Below are positions 25,739 to 46,574 of a DNA stretch of 64,000 nucleotides, one piece after another; within the stretch, counting starts at the first letter, position 1, and the number at the start of each line of letters is the position of its first letter. A program made the translations under genes and the position numbers. Where the stretch lies: NCBI GenBank assembly GCA_001768325.1, contig MENQ01000012.1:124001-188000 (forward strand), read 5' to 3'. This stretch comes from Bacteroidetes bacterium GWC2_46_850 (GTDB lineage: Bacteria; Bacteroidota; Bacteroidia; Bacteroidales; Dysgonomonadaceae). The notes beneath the pieces were generated by a model. It worked only from the letters and a program-made list of their open reading frames with translations, was not told the origin of the DNA and did not search any database.

Positions 25739-27211
25739 ATGATTAAACAAACCAAAATCATCGCTACCATTTCCGACAAGCGGTGCGACGTGGCCTTTTT
25801 AAAAGAGCTGTTCGATGCCGGAATGAATGTGGTACGACTCAACTCAGCCCATCTCGACGAAACGGGCTTTTTAAAGATCATCAACAATGTGCGTCAGGTT
25901 TCGTCCCATATTGCCATTCTCGTGGATACAAAGGGCCCAGAGATCCGTACCACGGTGACTGAAACCCCTCTTGAACTGAAAACAGGCGACAAAATAAAGA
26001 TCGTGGGCGACCCGCATGGCGTTTCATCCAGGGAAACCATTTATATTTCTTACCCCAGCATTACCGAAGAAATGCGTGTGGATGATGATATCCTGATTGA
26101 TGACGGTGAGATAGATCTGAAAGTAATTGAAGTAAACAAAGATTACCTGCTCTGCAGCGCCATGAATGATGGCGTGGTGGGAAGCCGCAAGAGCGTGAAC
26201 ATACCCGGTGTGCGGATCAACCTGCCTGCCATCACATCCCGCGACAGAGATTTCATTGCCCTGTCGGTAAAGCATGAGGTGGATTTTATCGCTCATTCCT
26301 TTGTACGCAACAAGGAAGATGTGATTGCGGTGCAGGAGATCCTTGATGAACTGAAAAGTACCATCAAGATCATCGCCAAGATCGAAAACCAGGAAGGTGT
26401 GGACAATGCCGATGAAATTCTGGAGGCTGCATATGGCATCATGGTCGCACGGGGTGACCTGGGAATAGAGGTCGCCCAGGAAAAGATTCCAGGCATACAA
26501 CGTGTACTCATTAAAAAAGCCATTCATCACAAAAAACCGGTTATTGTAGCCACACAAATGCTGCACTCCATGATCCAGAATCCGCGACCCACGCGTGCTG
26601 AAATTACCGATATTGCCAATGCCATCTACTACCGTACCGATGCGGTAATGCTTAGCGGGGAAACTGCTTACGGCAAATACCCGGTGGAGGCAGTGAAAAC
26701 AATGGCTAAAACGGCCTACGAAGCAGAACTGACCAAACTTACCGAGAACGATATCCGTGTACCCTATAATCCCGATGACGACCGCAGTGTTACCGAGTTC
26801 CTGGCCAAGCAGGCTGTAAAATCGTCGGTAAGGCTGAATGTGAAAGCCATCGTGACCGACAGTCACACCGGGAAAACTGCCCGGGTGCTGGCTGCATTCC
26901 GCGGTAAAAGCCCGGTGTATGCCATTACCACCACGGAACGTCTTGCCCGGGAACTGGCGCTCTCCTACGGTATCATGGCGGAACATCAACAGGGAAAGGG
27001 CGACGGAAATACCAAAGAGAGCCGGAGAGCTTATTTCACAGACGCCATCCGCAGGCTGATCGATAAGAAAATGATCGCACCCAAAGACCGGGTAGCATAT
27101 CTGGGGGGCAGCTTTGGCGAAGTGGGCGGCACCACCTATCTGGAAATTTCCGAAGTGTGGCGGATATTGGAGGCGAAAGAAAAATACAATCTGCCCGATT
27201 ATACGGTATAA
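25739..27211 (+). CDS. pyk: Pyruvate kinase
   Basis: A 490-residue glycolytic enzyme converting PEP and ADP to pyruvate and ATP. Signatures: NVVRLNSAH near residue 31, DTKGPEIRT near 63, IIAKIENQEGVDNADEI near 215, VARGDLGIEV near 240, and VATQMLHSMIQNPRPTRAE near 268 with SGETAYGKYPVEAV near 307. The C-terminal allosteric domain follows. The protein is of normal length, and the ATG follows a repeat-rich spacer. The stop codon TAA overlaps by one base with the ATG of the next gene, so the two are translated from one message. Confidence 0.96.
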   Translation: MIKQTKIIATISDKRCDVAFLKELFDAGMNVVRLNSAHLDETGFLKIINNVRQVSSHIAILVDTKGPEIRTTVTETPLELKTGDKIKIVGDPHGVSSRETIYISYPSITEEMRVDDDILIDDGEIDLKVIEVNKDYLLCSAMNDGVVGSRKSVNIPGVRINLPAITSRDRDFIALSVKHEVDFIAHSFVRNKEDVIAVQEILDELKSTIKIIAKIENQEGVDNADEILEAAYGIMVARGDLGIEVAQEKIPGIQRVLIKKAIHHKKPVIVATQMLHSMIQNPRPTRAEITDIANAIYYRTDAVMLSGETAYGKYPVEAVKTMAKTAYEAELTKLTENDIRVPYNPDDDRSVTEFLAKQAVKSSVRLNVKAIVTDSHTGKTARVLAAFRGKSPVYAITTTERLARELALSYGIMAEHQQGKGDGNTKESRRAYFTDAIRRLIDKKMIAPKDRVAYLGGSFGEVGGTTYLEISEVWRILEAKEKYNLPDYTV

Positions 27212-27852
27212 TGCAAACAGACGGCAAACTGGAGAATTATATTCTGTCGCACAGCGATGATGAGCCCGAACTTCTGAAGAAGATAGAGCGCGACACGCAT
27301 GTGAAGATGTTGCAGACAAACATGAATGCAGGCCATCTTCAGGGCCGGCTTTTGAAGATGATCACCCAGATGATCCGCCCCAAACGGATCCTGGAGATCG
27401 GCACATTTGTCGGTTATTCAGCTCTCTGCTTCGCTGAGGGACTTGAGGAGGGAGGGGAGCTTCATACCATTGAAATCGATGACGAAATTGAAGATATAGC
27501 CCGTGCTAACTTTGCCAAATCGGAACATGGACACAAGATCATCCTTCATATCGGCGATGTCATGGATATCCTTCCCCGGTTTGGAGATGAGAGTTTCGAT
27601 CTGGTCTTCATGGATGGCGACAAGGAGTCTTACCGGGATCATTTCGAGGCGATATTGCCGAAATTAAGAAGAGGAAGATTCATTCTTGCGGACAACACAC
27701 TCTGGTATGGTAAGGTTGTGGAGAAAGTAAAGAGCAATGATCATTCTACTCAGGGTATCCTGAATTTCAACAAACGGCTTGCGGAAGATACAAGGGTTGA
27801 TAAAGTGATATTACCTGTGCGTGACGGGTTAACGCTCATCAGAAAGAGATAA
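27211..27852 (+). CDS. Class I SAM-dependent O-methyltransferase (COMT-like family 3)
   Basis: A 213-residue protein. The start at 27211 is chosen because it abuts the pyk stop and family sequence begins there. The SAM-binding motif is RILEIGTFVGYSALCFAEGL near residue 57, followed by TIEIDDE (acidic residue after strand 2) and DLVFMDGDKE near 130. The C-terminal half has FILADNTLWYG, typical of the catechol-type O-methyltransferase family 3 found in many bacteria. The substrate is unknown. Sitting between pyk and rbfA in a tight operon suggests a housekeeping role, but this is not proof of function. Confidence 0.88.
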   Translation: MQTDGKLENYILSHSDDEPELLKKIERDTHVKMLQTNMNAGHLQGRLLKMITQMIRPKRILEIGTFVGYSALCFAEGLEEGGELHTIEIDDEIEDIARANFAKSEHGHKIILHIGDVMDILPRFGDESFDLVFMDGDKESYRDHFEAILPKLRRGRFILADNTLWYGKVVEKVKSNDHSTQGILNFNKRLAEDTRVDKVILPVRDGLTLIRKR

Positions 27853-27855
27853 CAT

Positions 27856-28194
27856 ATGGACTCAAACAGACAGTTAAAAGTAAACCGACTGATACAGAAA
27901 GAACTCAGCGAGATTTTTTTGCTCGAGACAAAGAAGATGCAAGGTGTTTTTGTGTCGGTCACCAACGTACGTGTATCGCCCGATCTGGGCCTGGCGCATG
28001 TTTATCTGAGCATATTTCCTTCCGACAATTCCCGGGAGTATGTGGAAAACATCAACGGCAACGTGAAATCGGTGCGTTATGAACTCGGAAAAAGGGTGGG
28101 CAAGCAGTTGCGTGTTGTACCCGAGCTCTCGTTTCATGTGGACGATTCACTCGATTACATCGAGAACATCGACAGGTTGCTGAAAGACCAGTAA
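27856..28194 (+). CDS. rbfA: Ribosome-binding factor A
   Basis: A 112-residue KH-fold protein needed for late maturation of the 30S subunit and processing of the 16S rRNA 5' end. Family features: an N-terminal RLIQKELSEIF, the SVTNVRVSPDLGLAHVYLSIF core, and RYELGKRVGKQLRVVPELSFHVDDSLDY read in short stretches toward the end. The gene starts 3 nt after the O-methyltransferase stop, and the LolC/E-type permease follows after 26 nt; the rbfA-permease pairing is common in Bacteroidales. Confidence 0.95.
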   Translation: MDSNRQLKVNRLIQKELSEIFLLETKKMQGVFVSVTNVRVSPDLGLAHVYLSIFPSDNSREYVENINGNVKSVRYELGKRVGKQLRVVPELSFHVDDSLDYIENIDRLLKDQ

Positions 28195-28220
28195 AAAACC
28201 GTTGATTTTCGCATGATATC

Positions 28221-29468
28221 ATGAACGTATCCTTTTTCATCGCCCGGAGATATCTCTTTTCAAAGAAATCGCACAATGCCATCAATGTGATTTCAGCTAT
28301 TTCGGTCTGCGGCATTGCCATCGCTACAATGGCCATGGTGTGCGTGCTCTCTGTCTTCAACGGCTTTGGCGGTATTGTGAAAGATATGTTCAGTGCCATC
28401 GATCCCGATCTCAAAATATCGGTGAAACAGGGCAAGGTGTTCGATTATCATACAGCGGCATTTGAAGAGGCGCTGCGACTCCCGGGCGTACAGCTTATTT
28501 CCGAGTCGCTCGAAGAGAATGCGCTCTTTAAGTTCGAAGAACAGCAGGTACCGGTTCGCATGAAAGGCGTGTCAGAAGATTTCAGACTGATGACCGACAT
28601 GGATAAGCTAATGGTAGACGGCTCCTTCCGGTTGCGCGAGGATGTGGTGGATTATGCCACCCTGGGTGCCGGACTGGCTGTCACCCTGGGTGCACGTCCC
28701 GGTTTTGTCAATGCTGTCGAAATATACGCTCCACGACGCGATGCGCGGGTGAACCTGGCCAACCCGTCCGCGGCCTTTGTCACAGGATATGCTCAGATAG
28801 GAGGGATTTTTGGGCTTAATCAGCCTGAATATGACGATCAGATGGCCATTGTTCCCATTGAACTGGCGCGGGAACTGTTTAATTACAAGACGGAGGTCTC
28901 TTGCCTCGAAGTGAAACTTACTTCGGACGCTTCCGTCTCCAGGGTTAAACGGGAGATGGAACGCATCCTGGGAGATGATTTTCTGGTGGAAGATCGTTTT
29001 GAACAACAACAAGAGTCGTTTCGAATGCTGCAGATAGAGAAATGGGTTACTTTTCTGATTTTGGCATTTATTTTGCTGATAGCTGTTTTTAATGTCGTCG
29101 GTTCCCTGTCGATGCTCATCGTAGAGAAAAAAGAGGACATCAGGAGTCTACAGAACATGGGGGCCTCTCACCAACTCATCACCCGCATCTTCCTGTATGA
29201 AGGATGGCTTATCACTTTCATTGGCATTGTTGCTGGGATGGTTGCGGGGTTGGTATTGTGTCTGTTACAGCAGGAGTTCGGTCTCCTGAAATTAAGCGAT
29301 ACGCCCGGTGCCTACATCATTGATGCCTATCCGGTCATAGTGGAATTCAGCGACCTGCTAATCGTTTTCGCTGTGGTGAGCGTGACCGGACTGATGACGG
29401 TGCTTTATCCGGTAAATAATTTGAAGAAAAAGCTATCAGCAGTCAGCAATCAGCGATCAGCTTTTTAG
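28221..29468 (+). CDS. FtsX-like ABC permease, LolC/LolE family
   Basis: A 415-residue inner-membrane protein. One transmembrane helix near residues 25-48 is followed by a MacB-like periplasmic domain (about 50-260) and three further helices near 273-297, 316-340 and 365-390 (the FtsX domain). The N-terminus FFIARRYLFSKKSHNAINVI is the LolC/E signature. It would release lipoproteins to the outer membrane with an ATPase LolD, which is not in the window. The last 13 or so codons, encoding the LSAVSNQRSAF tail, coincide with a dispersed TCAGC repeat, so the natural C-terminus has probably been altered by the repeat. Confidence 0.88.
   Translation: MNVSFFIARRYLFSKKSHNAINVISAISVCGIAIATMAMVCVLSVFNGFGGIVKDMFSAIDPDLKISVKQGKVFDYHTAAFEEALRLPGVQLISESLEENALFKFEEQQVPVRMKGVSEDFRLMTDMDKLMVDGSFRLREDVVDYATLGAGLAVTLGARPGFVNAVEIYAPRRDARVNLANPSAAFVTGYAQIGGIFGLNQPEYDDQMAIVPIELARELFNYKTEVSCLEVKLTSDASVSRVKREMERILGDDFLVEDRFEQQQESFRMLQIEKWVTFLILAFILLIAVFNVVGSLSMLIVEKKEDIRSLQNMGASHQLITRIFLYEGWLITFIGIVAGMVAGLVLCLLQQEFGLLKLSDTPGAYIIDAYPVIVEFSDLLIVFAVVSVTGLMTVLYPVNNLKKKLSAVSNQRSAF
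29427..29466 (+). repeat. TCAGC repeat tract, copy 1 (inside the permease 3' end)
   Basis: AGCTATCAGCAGTCAGCAAT and further TCAGC words, flanked by the inverted pair AAAAAGCT (29427-29434) and AGCTTTTT (29459-29466). The same kind of tract occurs at 55618-55687 and 59441-59477. Confidence 0.65.
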
Positions 29469-29524
29469 GTGGATGATTTGATGGGTATCGATATGGATAA
29501 TGACTTAGTTTAAAAAGATATAGA

Positions 29525-30844
29525 ATGAAAATTGCAATTGTAGGGACCGGTTATGTAGGTTTGGTTTCGGGTGCATGTTTTGCAGAAATGGGTGTCGATG
29601 TAACCTGCGTGGATATCGACAGCGATAAGATTGAAGGTTTAAAGCAGGGGATTATTCCTATTTACGAGCCGGGACTGAAAAATATTGTGATCCGGAATTA
29701 TGAGGCAGACAGGCTTCATTTCACAACCAGTTTACCATCGGTACTGAATGACATGGAGATCATCTTCATTGCCGTGGGAACGCCCTCTGATGAAGAGGGA
29801 GATGCCGATCTTTCCTACGTAATGACGGTAGCAAACACCATCGCCGATCACATGGAGAAACCCCTGCTAATCGTGACCAAAAGTACGGTCCCAGTGGGTA
29901 CCTCCTACCGCATCAGGGAGGTAATCCGCAAGCGGTTGGATGAGCGTGGACTTCAGAAATTGGAATTTGATGTGGCTTCCAACCCCGAGTTTTTGAAAGA
30001 AGGTGCTGCTGTCAGCGACTTTATGAGTCCCGACCGTGTGGTGGTGGGCGTGGAGAGCAAGGAGGCGGAAGAATTGATGTCGAAGTTATATCGTCCGTTC
30101 CTGTTGAGCAACTTCCGGGTTATCTTTATGGATATCTTGTCGTCGGAGATGACCAAGTATGCCTCCAACGCCATGTTGGCCACGCGCATCAGTTTCATGA
30201 ACGATATTGCCAATCTTTGTGAGCTGGTGGGGGCCGATGTGAACATGGTGCGCCGTGGCATGGGTAGTGACTCCCGCATTGGCAGAAGCTTTCTCTATCC
30301 CGGTTGCGGTTATGGAGGTAGCTGCTTTCCCAAGGACATCCGCGCCATCATGAAGGTGGGGGAAGATGCAGGCTATGAGATGAAGGTGATTAAAGCAGTG
30401 GAGGAGGTTAACAACCGCCAGAAGGCCATCCTCTTTCATAAATTCAGTCACTATTTTAATGGCGATATCAAAGGCAAGATCGTGTCAGTGTGGGGATTGG
30501 CATTCAAGCCCGAGACCGATGATATGCGAGACGCACCATCACTCACCCTGATAAAAAGTCTTCTTGAAGCCGGCGTCTCCGTACGCGCATACGATCCGGC
30601 AGCCATGCAGGAAGCTCGCAAGTATCTGGACGACAGGATTTACTATGCAACCGATATTTACGATGCAGCCAATGAGGCCGATGCGCTGATTGTTCCGACC
30701 GAATGGAAGGAATTCCGCCTGCCCAACTGGTCGATTCTCCGGAAGATCATGAACAATCATCTGGTTATCGATGGCCGAAATATCTACAACAAGGAAGATC
30801 TCGCCTCTTATGGTTTTGAACATAGGGGAATAGGGCAGAAGTAG
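29525..30844 (+). CDS. ugd: UDP-glucose 6-dehydrogenase family protein
   Basis: A 439-residue cytoplasmic enzyme of the UDP-glucose/GDP-mannose dehydrogenase family. The N-terminal Rossmann motif is GTGYVGLVSGACFAE at residues 7-21, then KSTVPVGTS near 121, VASNPEFLKEGAA near 152, and the catalytic cysteine Cys267 in CGYGGSCFPKD. The C-terminal domain contains WGLAFKPETDDMRDAPS. It most likely oxidises UDP-glucose to UDP-glucuronate for surface polysaccharide. No capsule genes are adjacent, so it stands as a precursor gene on its own. Confidence 0.92.
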   Translation: MKIAIVGTGYVGLVSGACFAEMGVDVTCVDIDSDKIEGLKQGIIPIYEPGLKNIVIRNYEADRLHFTTSLPSVLNDMEIIFIAVGTPSDEEGDADLSYVMTVANTIADHMEKPLLIVTKSTVPVGTSYRIREVIRKRLDERGLQKLEFDVASNPEFLKEGAAVSDFMSPDRVVVGVESKEAEELMSKLYRPFLLSNFRVIFMDILSSEMTKYASNAMLATRISFMNDIANLCELVGADVNMVRRGMGSDSRIGRSFLYPGCGYGGSCFPKDIRAIMKVGEDAGYEMKVIKAVEEVNNRQKAILFHKFSHYFNGDIKGKIVSVWGLAFKPETDDMRDAPSLTLIKSLLEAGVSVRAYDPAAMQEARKYLDDRIYYATDIYDAANEADALIVPTEWKEFRLPNWSILRKIMNNHLVIDGRNIYNKEDLASYGFEHRGIGQK

Positions 30845-30922
30845 CTATCTGCCCATGGGATTATTTTTGTAGTCTTACAAATAATGTATTGAAAGAAATG
30901 ATGAAAACTGCAGATTTATATG

Positions 30923-30930
30923 TAAATTTG
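30923..30930 (+). promoter_or_regulatory. -7 box (TAAATTTG) of tRNA-Val
   Basis: TAAATTTG matches TAnnTTTG and ends 7 nt before the tRNA 5' end, which is where a stable-RNA start would be expected. A second match, TATTTTTG at 30862-30869, lies further upstream. Confidence 0.6.
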
Positions 30931-30937
30931 CAGCCCC

Positions 30938-31012
30938 GAATCGTTAGCTCAGCTGGTTTAGAGCGCTGCCTTGACAGGGCAGAGGTCACTGGTTCGAACC
31001 CAGTACGATTCA
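30938..31012 (+). tRNA. tRNA-Val (anticodon GAC)
   Basis: A clean cloverleaf: acceptor GAATCGT (30938-30944) with ACGATTC (31005-31011), a D arm with GCTCAGCTGGTTTAGAGC, an anticodon stem CTGCC/GGCAG around loop TTGACAG, hence anticodon GAC. The T arm is CTGGTTCGAACCCAG, and the discriminator is A31012. CCA is not encoded. Confidence 0.95.
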
Positions 31013-31051
31013 CATCCCATTTTCAGTATATTTTTCAACTTTTCCTGTTTA

Positions 31052-36330: not shown

Positions 36331-37245
36331 ATGGAAACAACAAAAATCACAGTTCAGTCGACCATCCTGGCCGACATTCAAAAAGTATGGGATTACTACA
36401 CCCAACCCGAACATATTATTGGTTGGAATTTTGCCAGTGACGACTGGCATTGTCCACGCGTAACCAACGATTTACGCGTGGGTGGCCAATACAGTGCCAG
36501 AATGGAAGCCAAGGATGGGAGTTATGGTTTCGATTTTAACGTGCTGTACGATGAAGTGGTCGAGCATGACAAAATTGCCTACACAATGGAAGATGGCCGA
36601 AAGGCAGTGATCACATTCACTGATGATCACAGCACCACGTTGGTGAAGGTTATATTTGATGCGGAAAACCAGAACGATCGGGAGATGCAAAGGGATGGCT
36701 GGCAGGCCATTTTGGATAATTTCAAAAAATATACGGAGTTGAAAAATCTGCGAATATTTGATTTTTTTGTCGACAAGGTAAACAGTACCATTCATGTAAA
36801 GCATGACTTCAACGCCACCCTTCAAAGAGTTTGGCAAGCCTGGACAACAGCCGAACTGTTAGACCAGTGGTGGGGACCGAAACCCTGGAGAGCCGAGACC
36901 AAAATAATGGATTTCCGTGAAGACGGACACTGGCTTTACGCCATGGTCGGTCCCGAAGGAGAACGGCATTGGGGAAGAGCGGATTATATCAGTATAAAAA
37001 ATGAAGAGTCGTTCAGCGCAAAAGATGGATTCTGCGATGAGAAAGGAACGCTGAATTCTGAGCTTCCTCAGAATTTATGGGAAGTACTGTTTCGTGAAAT
37101 GGGCGACAAAGTATTGGTTGATATAACGCTCACTTTCGATAGCCTTGAAGACCTAGAAACCAACATTCAGATGGGATTTAGAGAAGGCTTTACGATCGGG
37201 TTGAATCAACTGGACGAACTTTTGCTGACACATTTTACAATATAA
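36331..37245 (+). CDS. Tandem SRPBCC (AHSA1-like) domain protein
   Basis: A 304-residue soluble protein; the start at 36331 (METTKITVQ) is preferred to an upstream ATG. It contains two START/AHSA1 domains in tandem. Domain 1 (about residues 1-138) runs from ITVQSTILADIQKVWDYYTQ to GWQAILDNFKKY. Domain 2 (about 150-304) runs from STIHVKHDFNATLQRVWQAWT, with DQWWGPKPW, to GLNQLDELL. Each half has the size of a usual stand-alone AHSA1 protein, so this is a gene fusion. These hydrophobic-pocket proteins bind small ligands; the ligand here is unknown. A hairpin follows. Confidence 0.87.
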   Translation: METTKITVQSTILADIQKVWDYYTQPEHIIGWNFASDDWHCPRVTNDLRVGGQYSARMEAKDGSYGFDFNVLYDEVVEHDKIAYTMEDGRKAVITFTDDHSTTLVKVIFDAENQNDREMQRDGWQAILDNFKKYTELKNLRIFDFFVDKVNSTIHVKHDFNATLQRVWQAWTTAELLDQWWGPKPWRAETKIMDFREDGHWLYAMVGPEGERHWGRADYISIKNEESFSAKDGFCDEKGTLNSELPQNLWEVLFREMGDKVLVDITLTFDSLEDLETNIQMGFREGFTIGLNQLDELLLTHFTI

Positions 37246-37264
37246 GTTTGCCAGATCATAGCAG

Positions 37265-37308
37265 TCACTCCGCATACTGATGTCATGTCGGTATGCAGAG
37301 TGATTTAT
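37265..37308 (+). terminator. Terminator after the SRPBCC gene
   Basis: A 13-position stem (37265-37277 with 37291-37303) with one C-A mismatch and a 13-nt loop, followed by a short T-rich tail. Confidence 0.65.
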
Positions 37309-37394
37309 TCAAACCCTGTTTCTTCCTGCTTCATAAAATGTTGATTCAAGACAACAAAAAACACCGAATTGTGTTTTTTATAAAGAACAGTTGC

Positions 37395-37402
37395 TATCTT
37401 TG
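37395..37402 (+). promoter_or_regulatory. -7 box (TATCTTTG) for the AAA ATPase gene
   Basis: TATCTTTG lies 21 nt before ATG 37424 and overlaps the upstream in-frame TTG, supporting 37424 as the start. Confidence 0.55.
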
Positions 37403-37423
37403 TCGGACAAAAGAATAATAATT

Positions 37424-38623
37424 ATGGAAGAACTTTATTATATCTTTAACAGGCAGTTGCAAAATGTAAGTATGCCTTTTTTTAGGTATCTGCACAACCG
37501 GATTGACTGGACTAACCGATTGATTTTTATTCTTGGTGCAAGGGGTAGTGGGAAAACTACGTTATTGCTTCAGCATATTAAAAAGAATTTTGGAGAAGCA
37601 CCTAAAAATGTGTTATACGCCAGTTTGGATCATATCTGGTTTTCGGCGAACAAGCTTTATGATTTGGGACAAGACTTTGTGATGAACGGAGGAGAGTATC
37701 TTTTTCTTGACGAAGTACATAAGTACAAAAACTGGTCCCAGGAAGTCAAAAACCTCTATGATGCTTTTCCCGAGCTGCATATTGTATTAACCGGTTCCTC
37801 AATACTGGAAATTTATAAAGGGAATGCAGATCTAAGCAGAAGAGCGGTTCAATATACATTACAAGGAATGTCGTTCAGGGAATTTCTACTATTTGAGAAA
37901 GGAATAGTTTTTGAAGCAATCCCTTTAGAGGAACTGATAGTAAACCATCTTCAGTTATGTTCCGTCATAACAAAACAGCTGAAGATACTTCCAGCCTTTG
38001 GTCATTATCTGGATTATGGTTATTTTCCCTACTATAAAGAGAATATCAAATCATATCATCTGCGTTTGATTCAGACTGTAAACACGGTACTGGAGATCGA
38101 TCTTCCTGCGGTAGAGAGTATCGATTATTATTCCATCGACAAGATCAAGCAATTGCTCTACATCATTGCTCAAATGGTGCCCTTTTCGCCCAATATAAGT
38201 CAGTTAAGCCAACAGATTGGAGTGTCTAGGAACAGCCTGCTCTCCTATATCCGGTATCTGGAAAGAAGCCATATAATCCAAACATTGGAACAACAAAATG
38301 GGAAGCCAGGCAGGCTGACCAAACCTGAAAAGATTTATTTACACAACACCAATTACAATTTTGCCTTTGCCGTAAATCATCAACCAGATATTGGCAATGT
38401 GCGGGAGACCTTTTTTTGTAATCAGTTGAAACCAGTCGCCAATGTATCATTTACCAGTAAAACAGACTTCAGAGTTAATGATCGGTACTATTTTGAAGTC
38501 GGTGGCAGGAATAAAGGACATGAACAGATAGTGGGTCTTGACAGAGCCTATATTGCAGCAGATAATATCGAGCTGGGATTTGGTAATAAAATTCCACTCT
38601 GGCTTTTTGGGTTTCTGTATTGA
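37424..38623 (+). CDS. AAA ATPase with DUF4143 (orphan P-loop protein)
   Basis: A 399-residue cytoplasmic protein. The AAA domain has Walker A GARGSGKTT at residues 38-46, Walker B YLFLDEVHK, and sensor-1 IVLTGSS. A winged-helix region near 230-290 (ISQLSQQIGVSRNSLLSYI) is followed by the C-terminal DUF4143 nuclease-like fold. This architecture is widespread in Bacteroidota, often in many copies and in variable regions; the function is unknown, with suggested roles as toxins, NTPases or mobile-region genes. It stands directly before the Wadjet operon but is separated from it by 157 nt that contain the operon's own promoter. Confidence 0.88.
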   Translation: MEELYYIFNRQLQNVSMPFFRYLHNRIDWTNRLIFILGARGSGKTTLLLQHIKKNFGEAPKNVLYASLDHIWFSANKLYDLGQDFVMNGGEYLFLDEVHKYKNWSQEVKNLYDAFPELHIVLTGSSILEIYKGNADLSRRAVQYTLQGMSFREFLLFEKGIVFEAIPLEELIVNHLQLCSVITKQLKILPAFGHYLDYGYFPYYKENIKSYHLRLIQTVNTVLEIDLPAVESIDYYSIDKIKQLLYIIAQMVPFSPNISQLSQQIGVSRNSLLSYIRYLERSHIIQTLEQQNGKPGRLTKPEKIYLHNTNYNFAFAVNHQPDIGNVRETFFCNQLKPVANVSFTSKTDFRVNDRYYFEVGGRNKGHEQIVGLDRAYIAADNIELGFGNKIPLWLFGFLY

Positions 38624-38707
38624 ACCCTGCTCTCATCATTAATTGAAAAATAACTCATCACACTTACTTTTTTAGTTTTCTCGTTATCCTGCCGATTTTT
38701 CATTAAG

Positions 38708-38738
38708 TTTGTTCTCTGAGCATAATCTTATAATTTTG
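38708..38738 (+). promoter_or_regulatory. Wadjet operon promoter (TTTG-N19-TAATTTTG)
   Basis: A -33 box TTTG at 38708-38711, a 19-nt spacer and a -7 box TAATTTTG at 38731-38738: the best-formed Bacteroidota promoter seen in this window. Start of transcription is expected near 38745, some 35 nt before the first gene. Confidence 0.8.
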
Positions 38739-38780
38739 AATGGGGTAGCGTTCACAAAACAAGTGAACAGAAACACATAG

Positions 38781-39974
38781 ATGAATACATTTTCCAATAT
38801 AAAAGAACTGCTCAAAACCTTATCGAGGGAACAGGCATTGCTGTCAGAGATGTTTGAGAAACGAAAAACATTCTCGTACAAATATGATTACGCACTGGAG
38901 CTTGTGGAGCAGGACGAGAGTAGGATCAAATATCTGGTTGAACATGGCGTGATACGTGAAAATGGAAACTGGTTGGAACTAGATGATCAGTTTTTACAGT
39001 TTTTTGAACAGGTATTGGAGGTGAACGAAGAGATCAACATCTCATTAATCGATTCCCATATTCAGCATTTAAAAGATCAGATCAACTATTACCTGAAAGA
39101 AAACAACGAACAACGAAAATATAACTACCTGCGGGCGATCAAAAGTTCATTGAGAAAAATGGGAGTCATCACCCTGAGGAACATCGTCGATTTAAAGAGA
39201 AATATCGACAATACGTTCAAGAATGAGCCCAATTACAAGATCAAGCGAGCAAAACTGGAGTCACTTGACAAGAAGCGGGATGATATTTCTTCGTTTATTC
39301 GTCGGATCGAACAACTGTTGGAAGAGGAAGAGAAAACATTCTTTGCAATTGCCCTGGACGATGACCTGATTCAGATTATTCATTTGTTGAAGGTTGAGTT
39401 GAATGAATGCCGACATAATCTTATTGCAGCACAAAAGCAGATCATCGAATACCTCAACCAGATACAGTATCAAAGCCGGGTTGTTGAGAAAATACGACAA
39501 CTGAAATATCTGAAAGACCAGTTTACCATCCGTCACGACACCAATATCGATCAGATGCTCGCGTCAGACAGACATCTTATATATGAGACAAGGCCCACTT
39601 ATCCACTGAAGCTGGCGCTGGATTATCTGGGCAGCGATGAGGCACTCGACAGCATCCGGAAAATGTATCACGAAAGGGTATCGAATGTGAAGATGGAGCT
39701 CCCTCTCGCGCCTGCGCTGTCACTTGAACTCTTGAATGAGGAGATTCAGACTGAAATACAGGTGAACCTTGAGGAAGTGAAAAATGGTTTTATCGCTTCT
39801 GGTAAGGACCTCTTCAATTTTGTCGCGGGTTATCCATATGATAAAGAGTTATCGTTCGATGAGCAAGTGACTATTTTCTGTCAGATGATCTCTTTGTATG
39901 AAGCCGATTTCCAGTTTACAGACCAATTCAATTTTTTCAACGACGTAGAGTACGCGCTCGTTTATCCAAAATAA
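38781..39974 (+). CDS. jetA: Wadjet JetA-like subunit (MukF/MksF-type kleisin)
   Basis: A 397-residue soluble protein, first of four tightly packed genes. N-terminal about 90 residues look like a winged-helix (YLVEHGVIRENGNWLELD). The middle (about 100-260) is strongly charged and helical with coiled-coil character. The C-terminal part resembles the winged-helix end of bacterial kleisins. I do not recognise it by a sharp signature; the call rests on the operon, as the subunit that bridges the SMC heads in Wadjet/MksBEF systems. It would recruit JetB and the SMC JetC to DNA. Stop codon is 6 nt before jetB. Confidence 0.7.
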   Translation: MNTFSNIKELLKTLSREQALLSEMFEKRKTFSYKYDYALELVEQDESRIKYLVEHGVIRENGNWLELDDQFLQFFEQVLEVNEEINISLIDSHIQHLKDQINYYLKENNEQRKYNYLRAIKSSLRKMGVITLRNIVDLKRNIDNTFKNEPNYKIKRAKLESLDKKRDDISSFIRRIEQLLEEEEKTFFAIALDDDLIQIIHLLKVELNECRHNLIAAQKQIIEYLNQIQYQSRVVEKIRQLKYLKDQFTIRHDTNIDQMLASDRHLIYETRPTYPLKLALDYLGSDEALDSIRKMYHERVSNVKMELPLAPALSLELLNEEIQTEIQVNLEEVKNGFIASGKDLFNFVAGYPYDKELSFDEQVTIFCQMISLYEADFQFTDQFNFFNDVEYALVYPK

Positions 39975-39980
39975 GTTGTT

Positions 39981-40556
39981 ATGAATGTTCCTAGGCAGAC
40001 CGCGCAGATATTTGAAATATTGAGCAAAGGGCAGTTTATCTGTTCCAACAGCTCTGATGTTGAAATAAAGAGGCTTTATGATCTACTCGATGAGGAGGAG
40101 AACTACGAGAAGTTGTACAATTACTTCCGGCAAATTAATTTTACTCTTGAAAAAGGAGATGGATTTTTTTACTTTTCAAGAGTGGAGAACCGGGTTGATC
40201 TGGAACGCAAAATTAAGCAATCCTTTAAATGGATCGACCTGCTCGATTTTTTTAAAACATTCGATTCCTCATTTGGTGCGGGTACCCGTTTCGTACCTTC
40301 AGATATACTGGTGCAACTGAATGTGAACGCCGAGCTGAAGACAAAGTTGAGCTCCCTGAAACAATACACTCCCGAGAGATCAAAATATTCCGATATACTT
40401 TCTAAAATCATCAACGACATGCGAAACGAACGTTTAATCGAACTTGAGAATGAGATTTCGGAACAATATAAAGTGTTGTCCTCTTTCAAATACCTGGAAG
40501 AGCTGGTGTTATCGATACAAATAACTGACGAAGCAATCAATGAGATACCTGAATAA
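39981..40556 (+). CDS. jetB: Wadjet JetB-like subunit (MukE/MksE-type)
   Basis: A 191-residue soluble protein. It reads as two small winged-helix units: the first around residues 1-65 (QTAQIFEILSKGQFI, then the wing GDGFFYFSR) and the second around 70-130 (WIDLLDFFKTFD). A helical tail follows. This is the size and shape of MukE/MksE, the kite subunit that binds the kleisin. The last 17 nt overlap the start of the SMC gene in another frame, which implies translational coupling and fixed stoichiometry. Confidence 0.72.
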   Translation: MNVPRQTAQIFEILSKGQFICSNSSDVEIKRLYDLLDEEENYEKLYNYFRQINFTLEKGDGFFYFSRVENRVDLERKIKQSFKWIDLLDFFKTFDSSFGAGTRFVPSDILVQLNVNAELKTKLSSLKQYTPERSKYSDILSKIINDMRNERLIELENEISEQYKVLSSFKYLEELVLSIQITDEAINEIPE

Positions 40557-43500
40557 AGTCATATTCATAGAAAGTGCGAATACCCGTTATGCAGAGATCA
40601 AACTGGATGGGAACATACACCTGATTGGCACACAGGGTGTAGGAAAGAGTACCTTGTTGCGGGCCTTGCTGTTCTTTTACAACGCGAACCAGCAAAAGCT
40701 GGGCATTCCGATTGAGAAAAAGCGATTTATTGACTTTTATTTTCGATACCAGAATTCATTTATCGTGTACGAAGTGATGCACGAGAACGGGCCATTCTCT
40801 GTGATTACCTATAAATCGAGGGGAAGGGTGGTCTTTCGCTTTATTAATTCGGCATACCAGAAAGCCCACTTCATTGATCAAGCCAATGGACAGGTGGCTG
40901 GATCCTGGGATGTGGTACGCGATAACCTGAGCCGCGATGGGATAAAATATACCCGTTTGTTGGATCGATATGAAACATATCGTGACATCATCTACGGGAA
41001 CAACAAAGGACTCGGGAGTGAATTCCGAAAATATGCCTTGCTTGAGAGCAAGCAATACCAGAACATCCCCAGGGCGATTCAGCATGTGTTCCTGAACTAT
41101 AAAGTGGAAAGCGATTTTATCAAGGACACAATCATCAAGTCACTGGATGACGAAGAGATACCCATTGATCTGTCAAATTATACTTTTCACCTGAAAGATT
41201 TTGAAACGCAGCTGAACGACATCAGATTGTGGACTGAACAGCCCGTCAGGGGAGAGAACAGGATCCGGAAGCTGGCGGGTAAAATAATTGAAATATTCTC
41301 ACATATCCGCTATATAGAGCAGGACTTCAGACGTCTATCGGGAGAGCTCATGATCAGGTTGCATGATAACGATCAACAGCTTACGAAACTCGAAGCGTTG
41401 CTTAACAAAGAGGAAGAAAAGAAAGATGCTGCACTGGAACGACAGAAGAAATCGCTGGCGTACTACGACGAGCGGAAGAAAAAGCTATCGGAAGAGAAGG
41501 GAGTTTTTGTCAACAAGTTACGAGAAGCCCGTCAGAAAAGCGAAGAATACCGCCACCTGCACATGGACGAGGTTTTGTCACGTATCGACAAGAAGGGCGA
41601 ACTGTTACAGGAGCAACAAGCCATCACCAGTCAGCAGATGTTGCTCGAAAGTAATTTCAACGACATCAGGCAGAAATACGAAAGACAGATCGAACAACTT
41701 CACAACCAGTTTGAGTCCTACCGAAACAATCAGAACGAAAAGCTGCACAAGCTGAGGGATGAATTTTTCCGGTTTAAGGAAACGCTTGCCGAAGAATACG
41801 AACAAGGGAACATCGCAATAAAAGAACAATTCAAGGAACAACGTGTGCACGCAATGAAACGGTTGGATGAAATCAAAGAGGAGCTCATGAAACTTCAGAA
41901 CAGGCGCTTTGAAATCAAACACAGACGTTATCACGAAGCAGAGATCACCCAATGTAAAGAACAGATTCATTCTTATGATGGGGAGGGCAAGCTGGCACTC
42001 CTGGAAATAGAGCGTCTCAGAAATGAAAATACAACATTTGAACAACAGTGGAGGATGGAGGAGGAGCGGCTTAAGGCGCTGGCTGAAAACGAAAAAAATG
42101 AGTGCATAAAAGCAAGGCAGCAACTCTCCGCAAGGATGGATGAGATCCGTTTCCGCATAGAGAATAGCAAAGACTCACTGTATGGCTGGTTGAACAGTGC
42201 GTATCCCGGCTGGGAGCATACGATCGGAAAGGTGATTGATGAGGAACAGGTGTTGTTCTCATCGGGACTTTCACCTGTGATCACCTCTTCCGCTCCGGAT
42301 AGTTTTTACGGTATCAAAATCAATCTCGATGAAATAAAAAAAAATATCAAGACCGTTTCCGATTATGAAGCGGAGATCGCGTCTTTGAAAGACACGAGTG
42401 ACGAAAAAAGACTTGAAATCAACCAGGTCGATCAACGTTTGGGAGAGCAGCTGGACAAACTGAAAAAAAGATACCTCCCTCGCATCAAGGAAAATAAAGA
42501 ACAGATCATAAAATGCCAGTACGATCTCTCGCAATACAAGATTGCGTCGGATAAGGCGAACCTTGAACTCGACGGTTTACAGCGAAAAGCGGAAGAAGAC
42601 AAGAAAAATCATCTGGATGAAATCAACCAGCAGATAGACAAGGCACAAGTCGCTAAGGTGGAGGCAAGAAAAGAGCTGGATAGCATAGAAGATCAGACCG
42701 AAAAGAAAATCCAGGCGAAACAGAAAGAGAAAACAGCAAAAATTGAGGAACAACAAAAACAATTCGATAGCAGCAAGTCTCAGATGGAGCTGGCTGTCAC
42801 CAACAAGAAATCGGAAACAGCGGTCGCCGTGGAGGCATTAAGGGCAGATCAGAATAAAGAGCTGGAAGACAAAGGAGCGGATACCCAGCAGATCAACCTG
42901 CTCCAGGCTAAGCTGCGCGCGATAGAAGCTGAATTGAAATACATTGAGGATAACAGTGAGCTTGCCTTCAATTACAAGAAAGACAAGAAAGAACTGTTGG
43001 ATCGAATGGATTATTTCAGCCTGCAACGTGATTTACTGGATGAGAAGTTGAAAGAGATAGCATCAAGACAAGCAGACCAACAACGGAAACAGAGAGACGA
43101 ACAGGAGCTGATTCATGTCCATATCGACCAGCTAAAAAAAGAGATTGCAGCCATTGAGGAGGACAGTCGTCAGTTTGCCGAATTCAGGCAAACAGACGCT
43201 TATACCAATCACATTGCCCTGTTCGAACAGAAGAACGGTCACGAGTCATCCGGAAAAAGTGGCGTGGTGCTTATCCGGGAGCTCACGAATAACTATTATT
43301 TCCGGATCAAGCAGATGGAAACATTGAGAGAAAATGTACAGCTGTTCACCGGAAATTTCAGCGAGCAGAACATTTTCAAGTTCAAGACACGGTTGATTGA
43401 AGAGTCAGAATACCGGCAGTTCGCCGAAGCGTTGCAGGAGTTTATCGAAGAAGATAAAATCAGTGAGTACGAGAAGCGTGTGAACGAATTGTTTGCCCGG

Positions 43501-44238
43501 ATCATTCAACAGGTGGGGAACGAAACGGAGCAGTTGCTTTCTAAAGAATCTGCCATTCGGAAAGTGGTCAATGAGATTAATGCCGATTTCAGGCAAAAGA
43601 ATTTTGTTGGTGTCATCAAGAGTATTGAATTGCGTGTGGTGCCCAGTAGCAACAAGATCGTGCAGCTGTTGGGAGAGATCAAGCAGTTCAACGATGACAA
43701 TCTGTACAATTTCGGAGAAGTGAACCTGTTCAACTCCGAGCAGCAGAGCAGGGAAGAGAACAACCGGAAAGCGGTTCAGTACCTGTCCGCGTTGAACAAA
43801 TCCATTTCCGGTTACCGGAACAGTACCATCACGCTGAGTGACTCGTTTGAATTGGAGTTCAGGGTGGTGGAAAATGACAATGATACCGGTTGGGTGGATA
43901 AACTGGCCAATGTGGGATCTGATGGGACGGACGTACTGGTCAAGGCGATGATCAACATCATGCTGTTGAATGTCTTCAAGGAAGGGGCAACCCGGAACCA
44001 GTTCAAAGATTTCCGGCTGCACTGCATGATGGATGAGATAGGCAAACTGCACCCCAACAATGTGCGGGGTATCCTGAAATTTGCCAACGACAGGAAAATC
44101 TTTCTGGTGAACGGCTCCCCCCAGTCGTTCGATGCCCTCGCATACCGGTACACCTATCAGCTGAGCAAAAAAAGGGACACCCAGCTCGACAGGGAGATCA
44201 CGGTTGTTCATCGTATCGTTACCAACCATCGCCTGTAA
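40540..44238 (+). CDS. jetC: Wadjet JetC-like SMC ATPase (MukB/MksB-type)
   Basis: A 1232-residue SMC-family motor. The N-terminal ATPase half has Walker A GTQGVGKST at residues 30-38. Two very long coiled-coil arms (about 240-540 and 600-1000, rich in Glu, Lys, Gln) flank a small globular hinge near 545-600 (LYGWLNSAYPGWE). The C-terminal ATPase half carries a signature-like loop GSDGTD at 1126-1131 and Walker B with Asp1165-Glu1166 in CMMDEIGKL. All ATPase parts look complete. In Wadjet the SMC extrudes DNA loops and senses small circles. The chromosomal condensin Smc is a different family lacking this gene neighbourhood. Confidence 0.9.
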   Translation: MRYLNKVIFIESANTRYAEIKLDGNIHLIGTQGVGKSTLLRALLFFYNANQQKLGIPIEKKRFIDFYFRYQNSFIVYEVMHENGPFSVITYKSRGRVVFRFINSAYQKAHFIDQANGQVAGSWDVVRDNLSRDGIKYTRLLDRYETYRDIIYGNNKGLGSEFRKYALLESKQYQNIPRAIQHVFLNYKVESDFIKDTIIKSLDDEEIPIDLSNYTFHLKDFETQLNDIRLWTEQPVRGENRIRKLAGKIIEIFSHIRYIEQDFRRLSGELMIRLHDNDQQLTKLEALLNKEEEKKDAALERQKKSLAYYDERKKKLSEEKGVFVNKLREARQKSEEYRHLHMDEVLSRIDKKGELLQEQQAITSQQMLLESNFNDIRQKYERQIEQLHNQFESYRNNQNEKLHKLRDEFFRFKETLAEEYEQGNIAIKEQFKEQRVHAMKRLDEIKEELMKLQNRRFEIKHRRYHEAEITQCKEQIHSYDGEGKLALLEIERLRNENTTFEQQWRMEEERLKALAENEKNECIKARQQLSARMDEIRFRIENSKDSLYGWLNSAYPGWEHTIGKVIDEEQVLFSSGLSPVITSSAPDSFYGIKINLDEIKKNIKTVSDYEAEIASLKDTSDEKRLEINQVDQRLGEQLDKLKKRYLPRIKENKEQIIKCQYDLSQYKIASDKANLELDGLQRKAEEDKKNHLDEINQQIDKAQVAKVEARKELDSIEDQTEKKIQAKQKEKTAKIEEQQKQFDSSKSQMELAVTNKKSETAVAVEALRADQNKELEDKGADTQQINLLQAKLRAIEAELKYIEDNSELAFNYKKDKKELLDRMDYFSLQRDLLDEKLKEIASRQADQQRKQRDEQELIHVHIDQLKKEIAAIEEDSRQFAEFRQTDAYTNHIALFEQKNGHESSGKSGVVLIRELTNNYYFRIKQMETLRENVQLFTGNFSEQNIFKFKTRLIEESEYRQFAEALQEFIEEDKISEYEKRVNELFARIIQQVGNETEQLLSKESAIRKVVNEINADFRQKNFVGVIKSIELRVVPSSNKIVQLLGEIKQFNDDNLYNFGEVNLFNSEQQSREENNRKAVQYLSALNKSISGYRNSTITLSDSFELEFRVVENDNDTGWVDKLANVGSDGTDVLVKAMINIMLLNVFKEGATRNQFKDFRLHCMMDEIGKLHPNNVRGILKFANDRKIFLVNGSPQSFDALAYRYTYQLSKKRDTQLDREITVVHRIVTNHRL

Positions 44239-44240
44239 AG

Positions 44241-45113
44241 ATGAAAAAGCTGTCCTTGTCCACGGCAGAAAAATTGCTCCAACTCCGAAATGGGGAGAGA
44301 CTGCAGGCGAGTAAACTTCTGCAAGCCATTTTTCAGGAACTCCTTGCTGAAAATATCCTGTATAAAACAGGCAAGACACGGGGGCTCTTGCTGCTTGTAA
44401 ACAGCGGTCAATTTGATCTCTACCTGCAGAACCGCTATGCTATTGCCGACTTGAATGAATATGTGACCCTGTTGCGGCAGGAGAATTATTCTCGATCCGA
44501 CCTGGTCCGGGTCTCTACCGATTCGAAATTATCAGCGATACGAAGTTTCAAAGGTTTCCTGGTTAATTGCTATGAACCGGTGGACGTTATGCTGAATCAT
44601 TCCAAAACCATCCTTCAGCCCCTGCCCGGTTTATTTCATTTCATTTATGATTACGAAAATTTTATTCCCGATAGCCAATGTACCATTGTGGGCGTGGAGA
44701 ACCCTGAAAACTTCCGGTACATAGAAAAACAGAAAAAAATATTTCAGCACCTCAAGCCGCTGTTTATCAGTCGATACCCGCAAGGTCAACATGCCGACAT
44801 CATCCGGTGGCTAAAAATGATTCCCAATCCTTATCTTCATTTTGGCGATTTTGATCTGGCTGGTATCAATATCTACCAGAATGAATTTAAAAAATATATC
44901 CCGGAGAAATCAACTTTTTTCATTCCCGATCACATGGAGGAGCTGATTCGGATATATGGTAATCCCAGTCGGTATGACGATCAGAAACTGCACCTGGATA
45001 AAGCCGGCATCCTGGAAGAAGAGGTGGTAGAACTGATTCGCATCATCCACAAGCACAAAAAAGGATTGGATCAGGAAATTTTTCAAAACTTTGGAAATAA
45101 TGACCAACCATGA
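44241..45113 (+). CDS. jetD: Wadjet JetD-like TOPRIM nuclease
   Basis: A 290-residue protein, start 2 nt after the SMC stop. The N-terminal part (about 1-130) is a helical/winged-helix arm as in DUF3322. The C-terminal TOPRIM domain (DUF2220-like) shows the metal-binding glutamate Glu153 in VGVENPENF and the DxD motif Asp203-Phe-Asp205 in HFGDFDLAGINIY. These residues match the active site that cleaves plasmid DNA in JetD. It is shorter than the 380-400 residues I recall for type I JetD, so the arm is compact. With jetABC it completes a four-gene anti-plasmid system. Confidence 0.85.
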   Translation: MKKLSLSTAEKLLQLRNGERLQASKLLQAIFQELLAENILYKTGKTRGLLLLVNSGQFDLYLQNRYAIADLNEYVTLLRQENYSRSDLVRVSTDSKLSAIRSFKGFLVNCYEPVDVMLNHSKTILQPLPGLFHFIYDYENFIPDSQCTIVGVENPENFRYIEKQKKIFQHLKPLFISRYPQGQHADIIRWLKMIPNPYLHFGDFDLAGINIYQNEFKKYIPEKSTFFIPDHMEELIRIYGNPSRYDDQKLHLDKAGILEEEVVELIRIIHKHKKGLDQEIFQNFGNNDQP

Positions 45114-45276
45114 TTGAGAAGAAGGAGAGAGACCCTGCGAGTTTTATTAAGTAAGCGCCTCGTGTAACACTAGCTAAGGTGAAATTGCAAATCGAGCTGC
45201 TTGATGTCAATCTTAGCATGGGGCAATAATCATCCTGTTTGTTATAAACAGTCAGTGTACCTCTGATTCTCAGAAA
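45114..45276. other. Gap between jetD and the DUF2200 gene
   Basis: 163 nt with no reading frame of note; a short inverted repeat (CTGTTT/AAACAG at 45235-45251) is the only structure seen and no T run follows. Confidence 0.4.
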
Positions 45277-45630
45277 TCATTTTCTTAATATCTTCTCCAT
45301 GGCCTTTCCCTTGGCCAATTCGTCGATCAGCTTGTCGAGATAACGGGCTTTTTGCACAATATCATCTTCAATATCTTCCACCCGAATCCCGCAGATCACG
45401 CCGGTAATTTTGGATGCGTTGGGATTGATCTGGGGCACTTGTGTAAAGAAGGTTTCAAAATTCATATCGCCGGCCAGTATATCTTCCAACTCTTTTTTGC
45501 TGTATCCGGTCAGCCAGCAGATGATTTCGTCCACTTCTTCCTTGCTGCGGCCTTTCTTTTCTGCTTTCTCCACATAATAAGGATAGACCCTTGGAAATGA
45601 TAATTTGTAGATTTTCTCCTGATTCTTCAT
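45277..45630 (-). CDS. DUF2200 family protein
   Basis: A 117-residue soluble protein matching DUF2200 over its full length: it opens with [20 protein letters not shown] and contains [13 protein letters not shown] near residue 38 and the [15 protein letters not shown] segment near 83. Members are small, widely scattered among Firmicutes and Bacteroidota and of unknown function. It starts 18 nt after the DUF4180 stop on the same strand, suggesting a two-gene unit. Confidence 0.85.
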
Positions 45631-45648
45631 TTTATTACTTATAAATCT

Positions 45649-46011
45649 TCATTTACCGGAAAATATCCTGATCGCTTCGTCTACTGAATGCACAAAAATT
45701 ACCTGTTTGTGTTGGTTGCTTTCGCGTATGAAGTCCTTGATACTTTTACTTTCGTACTGTGTCAAGTCGCCCACAATGGCCAGGGGCATCCTGTAATTTG
45801 AGAACTTTTGAAGTATCTCGCCGGCAATTCCGCTTTTCAGATCAAAAAAATCAGGGGTGATATTCTTCTCATGGATAATCATTTTGTCAAATCCCTGATA
45901 GTAGATATTGCCCAGTAAATTCAATCCTTCTTCAGGCGAGTTAATCAGCATTGAGTCTGATGTGATTTCCGCGATTTTTATATTGTTTACATTGTGTATT
46001 TTAATTTCCAT
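45649..46011 (-). CDS. DUF4180 family protein
   Basis: A 120-residue soluble protein with the DUF4180 pattern: SPEEGLNLLGNIYYQGFDKM near residue 25, FFDLKSGIAGEILQKFSNY near 55 and the strand LAIVGDLTQYES near 77. The fold is probably of the STAS-like alpha/beta type, as related proteins are sometimes compared with SpoIIAA. The function is unknown. It is first of a likely two-gene operon with DUF2200. Confidence 0.83.
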   Translation of the reverse strand: MEIKIHNVNNIKIAEITSDSMLINSPEEGLNLLGNIYYQGFDKMIIHEKNITPDFFDLKSGIAGEILQKFSNYRMPLAIVGDLTQYESKSIKDFIRESNQHKQVIFVHSVDEAIRIFSGK

Positions 46012-46160
46012 TACAGCTCCTTTTAACGGCAGATTTTATAAGATCGATAACAATTGATGAAGCTACATGGTTCAGCTGTGTTTAACGGAAACTAAACCTT
46101 TATACACTTTGGAGTGTTTATATTGCGTCATAAAAATCACATGTGCAAATCATTTCAATC

Positions 46161-46574
46161 ATGACGAAAATACATACCACCAACTACTTCGATACGTTTA
46201 TTGAAGTTGCTCCCGACACGAAAGCGAATAGTGGTACTCCGCCGCCATCGAAAGAGAAAAAGACGGTTGCACAAATGCAGTATGAGCTTATTGGCAACAA
46301 TCCTTATAAATTCAGTTCAGACGACGTCCTTTTTCAGGTGTATGCAGACAGGAATGGTCTGAAAGAATCGGAATATAAACAAGCGAGGGAACAGTTCTTT
46401 TCGAAAGGACAGCCTTGTCTGCGAACATCTCCATTGACCAAAACTTATGGTTATGGCATTCACAGCAACAAGAATGGGAAAATTGCATTGTATGGAATGG
46501 AGACCAGGGAGTATGCCAATTTTATCACCGACTCCGGAGTGGTTAAAGTGAAAGCCATGAAGTCGTGGAAATAG
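46161..46574 (+). CDS. DUF6157 family protein
   Basis: A 137-residue soluble protein; the ATG at 46161 (MTKIHTTNYFDTFIEVAPD) is preferred to a GTG at 46143. Features are the YFDTFIEVAPD opening, the QYELIGNNPYKFSSDD segment and a Gly/Tyr-rich stretch TYGYGIHSNKNGKIALYG. These match a small family annotated DUF6157 that is common in Bacteroidota. The function is unknown. A rhodanese gene follows on the same strand after 39 nt. Confidence 0.8.
   Translation: MTKIHTTNYFDTFIEVAPDTKANSGTPPPSKEKKTVAQMQYELIGNNPYKFSSDDVLFQVYADRNGLKESEYKQAREQFFSKGQPCLRTSPLTKTYGYGIHSNKNGKIALYGMETREYANFITDSGVVKVKAMKSWK

Follow-up and report, generated by a model that had tools for sequence, protein, structure and literature searches.

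The window analysed here, 64,000 nucleotides of Bacteroidetes bacterium GWC2_46_850 (contig MENQ01000012.1, positions 124,001 to 188,000), contains a compact four-gene operon, designated A to D (Table 1), that probably specifies a Wadjet-like SMC nuclease. The system is accessory, its lineage lies outside type I and is unrecognised by the PADLOC models of Wadjet types I-III, and in it the products of A, B and C would form a motor and D would cut small circles of DNA. The putative metal-binding residues of the TOPRIM protein D (E153, D203 and D205) are identical in all 74 of the D proteins compared, and A, B, C and D occur once each, in the same order and on one strand, at 72 of 80 genome loci, so that neither the motifs nor the grouping of the genes can be put down to chance. 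The lineage, recognised from sequence by an MksE protein, a DUF3584 SMC and a DUF7281 TOPRIM protein, is widespread in the Bacteroidota.

Composition and conservation of the operon

The operon spans 38781-45113 on the plus strand with intergenic spacings of 6, -17 and 2 nucleotides, and the open reading frame (ORF) coordinates agree in this with the first-pass annotation, which had described a complete Wadjet system of kleisin, KITE, SMC and TOPRIM nuclease genes. That make-up, in that order, is borne out by Pfam for B, C and D and by predicted folds for A and D. B matches the MksE family (PF21980) at an expectation value (E) of 1.9e-42, at odds with the earlier description of JetB as divergent; the short JetD described with it stands. 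C matches DUF3584 (PF12128) at 4.3e-52 over residues 18-1197, and D matches DUF7281 (PF23947) at 3.4e-9, with JetD_C under the cut-off (0.066). No NCBIfam family scored over its cut-off for A, B, C or D.

Table 1. Genes and leader of the operon in the window
Feature	Position	Strand	Basis
A, kleisin-like subunit (JetA/MksF position), 397 amino acids	38781..39974	+	ORF, predicted fold
B, KITE subunit, MksE family (JetB position), 191 amino acids	39981..40556	+	ORF, PF21980
C, SMC-family ATPase, DUF3584 (JetC/MksB position), 1232 amino acids	40540..44238	+	ORF, PF12128, motifs
D, short TOPRIM nuclease-like subunit, DUF7281 (JetD/MksG position), 290 amino acids	44241..45113	+	PF23947, AlphaFold2 fold
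Leader upstream of A, common to locus L057	38668..38780	+	DNA identity

The predicted SMC ATPase motifs and TOPRIM metal-binding residues are intact in the window operon. Alignments place the Walker A motif of C (G30...S37 T38), the GSDGTD loop (1126-1131) and Walker B (D1165/E1166), as well as E153 and D203/D205 of D, where the annotation had put them. Among 92 C proteins, simple patterns match Walker A in 88, GS[D/E]GTD in 82 and Walker B in 90; of the ten that depart from GS[D/E]GTD, four read GSNGTD, three are proteobacterial and three belong to loci L087, L114 and L115.

These comparisons draw on one scan of species genomes, which found 363 stretches encoding relatives of C; the best 80 of the 363 were examined, and nearly all of them are in records titled Bacteroidota. 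Across 81 loci (80 genome, one viral), A is present at 79, B at 80 and D at 74. DUF7281 was matched in all 74 D proteins, and JetD_C at E<=0.01 in 18 of them. A Pfam search for DUF7281 in 296 genomes of the phylum gave zero matches, yet it also missed the D of the window itself, so it says nothing about absence.

A matched no Pfam family over the cut-off, and the commonest family among 78 A proteins, DUF2096_N, was matched weakly in seven. The AlphaFold2 model of A from 78 sequences (predicted local distance difference test, pLDDT, 81.6; predicted template-modelling score, pTM, 0.43) begins with a winged-helix-like part, continues with long helices and a linker of low confidence, and ends in another winged-helix-like part, the domain names being a reading of secondary structure. 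Of 647 Foldseek matches of this model to the PDB, two had E<=0.001: JetA of E. coli Wadjet (8q72_E, 5.3e-4, TM 0.18) and MukF (7nz2, 6.1e-4, TM 0.28), with TM, the template-modelling score, taken over the whole chain. This is modest evidence that A follows the fold plan expected of a kleisin. By sequence, the profile of A had no relative in the PDB and no convincing match to type I JetA, to the third gene of the proteobacterial operons described below or to MukF; alignment with E. coli MukF by hhalign gave E 0.41 and a probability of 0.1%, so that kinship with MukF was not found in the sequence though the fold resembles it. Modelling thus left the proposed kleisin fold of the first gene and TOPRIM fold of the fourth unrefuted, and the KITE identity of the second comes from its Pfam match, not from a model.

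The TOPRIM subunit

The model of D, built from 74 sequences, has a mean pLDDT of 91 and a pTM of 0.69. Seven residues are invariant in the 74 proteins (E153, N154, H200, D203, D205, Q278 and E279), and position 277 holds D or E in 73, so that the chain has a terminal [D/E]QE which parallels the R-L-E-Q-E of type I JetD; the same layout, with an invariant E-N, D-x-D and R-L-E-Q-E, recurs in seven type I JetD proteins from elsewhere in the phylum. Alignment of D with type I JetD by hhalign covers 86 columns, from the Asp-x-Asp to the terminal [D/E]QE (E 3e-4, probability 39.7%). In the MksG of C. glutamicum, according to the portions of PMC10123090 available, E236 and D279 bind metal and their mutation impairs cutting, and E349 and E351 are proposed as alternative nucleophiles.

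All eight Foldseek matches of the model of D to the PDB with E<=0.001 are topoisomerase VI-A or Spo11 (best 1d3y, 2.2e-6), and a profile search of the PDB found no relative of D by sequence. The fold, together with Tyr74 (in 72 of 74 D proteins) and Tyr111 (in 64), would suit a topoisomerase VI/Spo11-type enzyme that forms a covalent tyrosine link and works with the SMC protein in recombination or decatenation. Such an activity is highly improbable: in three proteobacterial D proteins no tyrosine is seen opposite Tyr74, as read from the alignments; the operon has no topoisomerase VI-B-like partner; and type I JetD/MksG has no equivalent tyrosine in the accounts available from PMC10586767 and PMC10123090. 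Tyr74 is accordingly disfavoured as a topoisomerase-like nucleophile, and a metal-dependent nuclease remains the preferred reading of D.

Accessory position within the genus

The operon is accessory in the genus of the window genome. Intact C was found in two of 37 genomes of the genus and a fragment in one; among genomes from other families of the order, three of 24 have C. The second intact carrier in the genus, Proteiniphilum sp. UBA4084 (L057, genome G030), shares 86% DNA identity with window 38668-45103. It also matches window 27011-31013, ending at a tRNA-Val gene, and the match resumes at 38668 apart from one 124-base-pair match between. The tRNA-Val gene (30938-31013), where the L057 match largely stops, was considered as a general border and rejected, since the sequence shared by G025 and G003 continues past it.

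The place occupied by the operon in the window shows examples of both presence and loss. G025 has both flanks and 92 base pairs in place of window 37232-45274 (8,043 base pairs), an empty site, and G027 has a scar (L180, G027:C43, 4732-4868) that keeps window 38660-38797, with the leader and first bases of A fused to an internal position of the following gene, the pattern expected of a deletion. In G003 the operon is absent and other sequence occupies its place. A separate short fragment of C lies elsewhere in G027 (G027:C74:534-683).

Just upstream of the operon is a gene for an AAA_14 ATPase (37424-38620, plus strand) that matches the PADLOC candidate model PDC-S01 at 6.7e-30; it was dropped as a candidate fifth component because the fetched stretch of L057 has no match to it. 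To the right of the operon, at 45277-46574, are genes of the families DUF2200, DUF4180 and DUF6157, which are partly missing in relatives.

Plasmid-borne and proteobacterial relatives

Sixteen plasmid records match C, and four of these also match D by tblastn (two Persicobacter, two Phocaeicola). Persicobacter plasmid pPP6 carries the complete set A to D, with a gene for a relaxase close by, and pPP3 of the same strain carries A, B and C but no D. ORFs resembling C and D also occur on a Salinibacter plasmid (3.7e-26 and 2e-9, respectively). Carriage on a Parabacteroides plasmid was rejected, since the record holds genes such as those for glutamine synthetase III and the glycine cleavage protein GcvT and is suspected to be a mislabelled piece of chromosome; the two Phocaeicola records are unannotated and come from the same sample series as that record. 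The claim of plasmid carriage thus rests on Persicobacter pPP6 and on proteobacterial plasmids.

Four of seven proteobacterial plasmid records were opened. Three of them (L138, L139 and L141) contain an operon in which B is MksE and D is DUF7281, as in the window, and the one C that was scanned (L139) is DUF3584, but the gene order is C-B-A-D. Window-family D and proteobacterial D align over nearly their full length by hhalign (3.9e-14); the third gene is named A for its position and length, with a weak profile match to A (E 0.036, probability 1.4%). PADLOC gave weak Jet matches to these operons as well, the best being JetD2 at 5.2e-5. The fourth, an IncC plasmid of Enterobacter hormaechei (L140), has a relative of the operon close to genes for Tn7-like transposition; an IS256-like element splits the SMC gene of this relative, and the fetched stretch ends before D. 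JetD (COG4924) has been reported as cargo of Tn7-like elements in the text available from PMC8649781.

Carriage on pPP6, the IncC/Tn7-like relative and the patchy presence in the genus were counted in favour of a Wadjet-like system. The patchy distribution, variable site and carriage by transposon and plasmid would also suit a defence complex aimed at phage DNA, or at another circular or replicating mobile element, instead of small plasmids. We consider this target unlikely: the nearest characterised systems are anti-plasmid, as far as the available portions of PMC10586767 and PMC10123090 go, and this analysis gave no sign of a phage-specific sensor.

Smc-ScpAB not detected in the genus, and scattered absence of D

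Smc did not score over the family cut-off in any of 39 genomes of the genus (10 of 14 controls did; at most 13 candidates were scored per genome), and the weak Smc matches present in all 39 look like chance coiled-coil or ATPase matches. ScpA was found in none of the 39 and ScpB in one (each in nine of 14 controls, for ScpB over the cut-off); genome G024 has two ScpB-like genes (G024:C3:184395-184868 and G024:C2:77644-78120). The search can work in this phylum, since carriers elsewhere in the Bacteroidota had Smc over the cut-off in five of 14 genomes, four of them full length. The negative result in the genus agrees with PMC10197239, in whose available text no known condensin was found in two gut Bacteroidetes and unidentified SMC complexes are mentioned. 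Judged by these searches, the operon may be the only condensin-type motor in its carriers within the genus; it is not a general substitute for Smc there, because most of the genus has no operon either.

Tips of the tree of C that lack D are scattered. In L069 it is absent and a D fragment with stops lies at another place in the genome; L088, L098 and L100, whose genomes are metagenome assemblies, have no D in the operon and none was found in the rest of the genome; and in L137, L144 and L146, which are plasmid or viral records, it is absent from the record, which was all that the search covered. L061 has its D elsewhere in the genome, and the count excludes L096, which ends at C and has no D found in the genome. 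The seven rows without D require seven changes on the tree of C, or four without the plasmid and viral rows, numbers that are rough because the tree is a quick one with long branches; L100 sits near L104, which has D. A tie between loss of D and loss of Smc was not upheld, as Smc passed the cut-off in two of the four D-less genomes searched and fell short of it in the other two.

The negative searches for Smc and ScpA, the single genome with ScpB and the copies without D would fit a chromosome-organising, MksBEF-like condensin in bacteria that have no Smc-ScpAB, with D as an accessory topoisomerase-like helper and no weapon; the MksBEF of P. aeruginosa acts on the chromosome, by the account available from PMC10586767. 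This role is nonetheless quite unlikely: 35 of 37 genomes of the genus have no intact C and none of 39 has Smc over the cut-off, so that neither is required there; the carriers with Smc elsewhere in the phylum have both; and the catalytic residues of D are strictly conserved. Between the two roles lies a possible, though doubtful, extension of the Wadjet-like reading, in which MksE, the DUF3584 SMC and the short DUF7281 TOPRIM protein would constitute a separate Wadjet type that serves as the sole condensin-type motor of carriers without Smc-ScpAB, and in which repeated loss of the nuclease would be making stand-alone condensins, a passage from defence to chromosome folding in progress. Derivation of MksBEF condensins from Wadjet through loss of the nuclease has been raised as a speculation in the part of PMC10586767 available, and the natural three-gene forms found here offer material on which to test it.

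Proposed mechanism and significance

The most likely role of the operon is to cut small circular DNA in the manner of Wadjet. On the model of type I Wadjet, for which the accessible text of PMC10586767 presents a total-extrusion model, A, B and C would assemble into an SMC-kleisin-KITE motor, powered by ATP, which would load on DNA and extrude loops, and D would be held inactive until the motor had reeled in the whole of a small circle. Once the circle was fully reeled in, the motors would meet and D would be switched on to make a double-strand cut that depends on metal; linear DNA and large chromosomes would escape. The way in which D is held and released may differ from type I, because its N-terminal half has no match to DUF3322.

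Four points weigh against this Wadjet-like reading. The kleisin call for A combines weak structural scores with no sequence match; the 50 PDB matches listed for the model of D include no JetD chain; some members lack D, so that A, B and C may do something without cutting; and the neighbours of the operon have no excess of defence families compared with genes farther away. Near 79 operons, PADLOC hit 284 families among the 137 nearest ORFs and 182 among 91 ORFs more than 3.5 kb away, the counts being of families hit and not of proteins, with the top 25 families listed; with no contrast between near and far ORFs, a defence island is not claimed.

If the operon does restrict plasmids, then many Bacteroidota possess a barrier against them that goes unreported by the copy of PADLOC used here, which would bear on gene transfer and on genetic work in this phylum. 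An SMC nuclease in hosts with no detectable Smc-ScpAB would also allow its action on the chromosome to be read free of that background.

Comparison with Wadjet, MksBEF and topoisomerase VI

Wadjet systems have been sorted into three types, with most work done on type I, according to the portion of PMC10586767 available. By its predicted domains the window operon is not of type I: a Pfam search at E<=1 found no DUF3375, no DUF4194 (in B or elsewhere) and no DUF3322, the N-terminal domain of the type I nuclease. The comparison with JetA-D profiles of types I-III that the first-pass annotation had proposed gave weak matches only, the best being JetD1 against D (2e-6), which covers residues 147-282 and thus the TOPRIM half alone. 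JetC1 matched C at 0.0013, no Jet model matched A or B at E<=10, and of the type II and III models only JetD3 matched (0.004); the separation from types II and III is made at the level of profiles. The annotation's suggestion of a less-studied Bacteroidota subtype therefore holds in that the operon is outside type I with weak matches to the type I-III models, but not in its restriction to Bacteroidota, given the relatives on proteobacterial plasmids. DUF7281 is unmentioned in the literature searched, which omits most subscription papers, and the DUF3584 literature searched has nothing on Wadjet by title.

A type I system of the phylum, L046, served as a positive control, with PADLOC matches to JetA1-JetD1 of 7.1e-227, 6.7e-92, 0 and 9.8e-148. 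Its Pfam matches are DUF3375; DUF4194 (1.1e-47) together with MksE (6.1e-23); an SMC without DUF3584 at E<=0.01; and DUF3322 with JetD_C. Since the JetB of L046 also matches MksE, that match alone cannot tell B from type I JetB. Type I JetB has a docking tail with an IFDR motif, in the text available from PMC10586767; absence of this tail was discarded as a distinction, because B has no long N-terminal tail but neither do the type I JetB of L040 and L042.

An MksE search of the phylum found 42 of 296 genomes, that of the window included. Among the 15 loci fetched (L037-L051) from the remaining 41, none matched the window-family A, B, C or D profiles at E<=1. Scans of the nuclease gene alone in L040, L041, L042 and L050 identified a type I JetD each time. 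With L046 these indicate that both kinds live in the phylum and that the PADLOC library does detect type I there. Thirty-two of the 42 MksE-positive genomes belong to one family, f42 (L046-L051), of type I where scanned (L046 and the nuclease of L050). The MksE operons of L037 and L038 have SMC proteins of 1056 and 1080 amino acids and nuclease-position proteins of 305 and 317 amino acids; neither of the latter had a PADLOC match at E<=0.01, the SMC of L037 had none either, and these loci are perhaps a further lineage.

With type I (JetABCD/MksBEFG of E. coli GF4-3, P. aeruginosa PA14 and C. glutamicum) the window operon shares the gene order, as seen in L046, and the TOPRIM Glu, Asp-x-Asp and terminal [D/E]QE of the nuclease. 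It differs in A, which has 397 amino acids and no DUF3375, whereas that of L046 has 482 and DUF3375; in B, which has no DUF4194 match; in C, which matches DUF3584 where the SMC of L046 does not; and in D, a DUF7281 protein of 290 amino acids that lacks the DUF3322 N-terminal domain. With P. aeruginosa MksBEF, compared by make-up, it shares an SMC-kleisin-KITE core with a KITE family that Pfam names MksE, but MksBEF comprises three genes and no nuclease, whereas the window operon includes D. With topoisomerase VI-A and Spo11 it shares the fold of D, but the D family has no tyrosine seen to be conserved throughout, and D belongs to an SMC operon and not to a pair with an ATPase B subunit.

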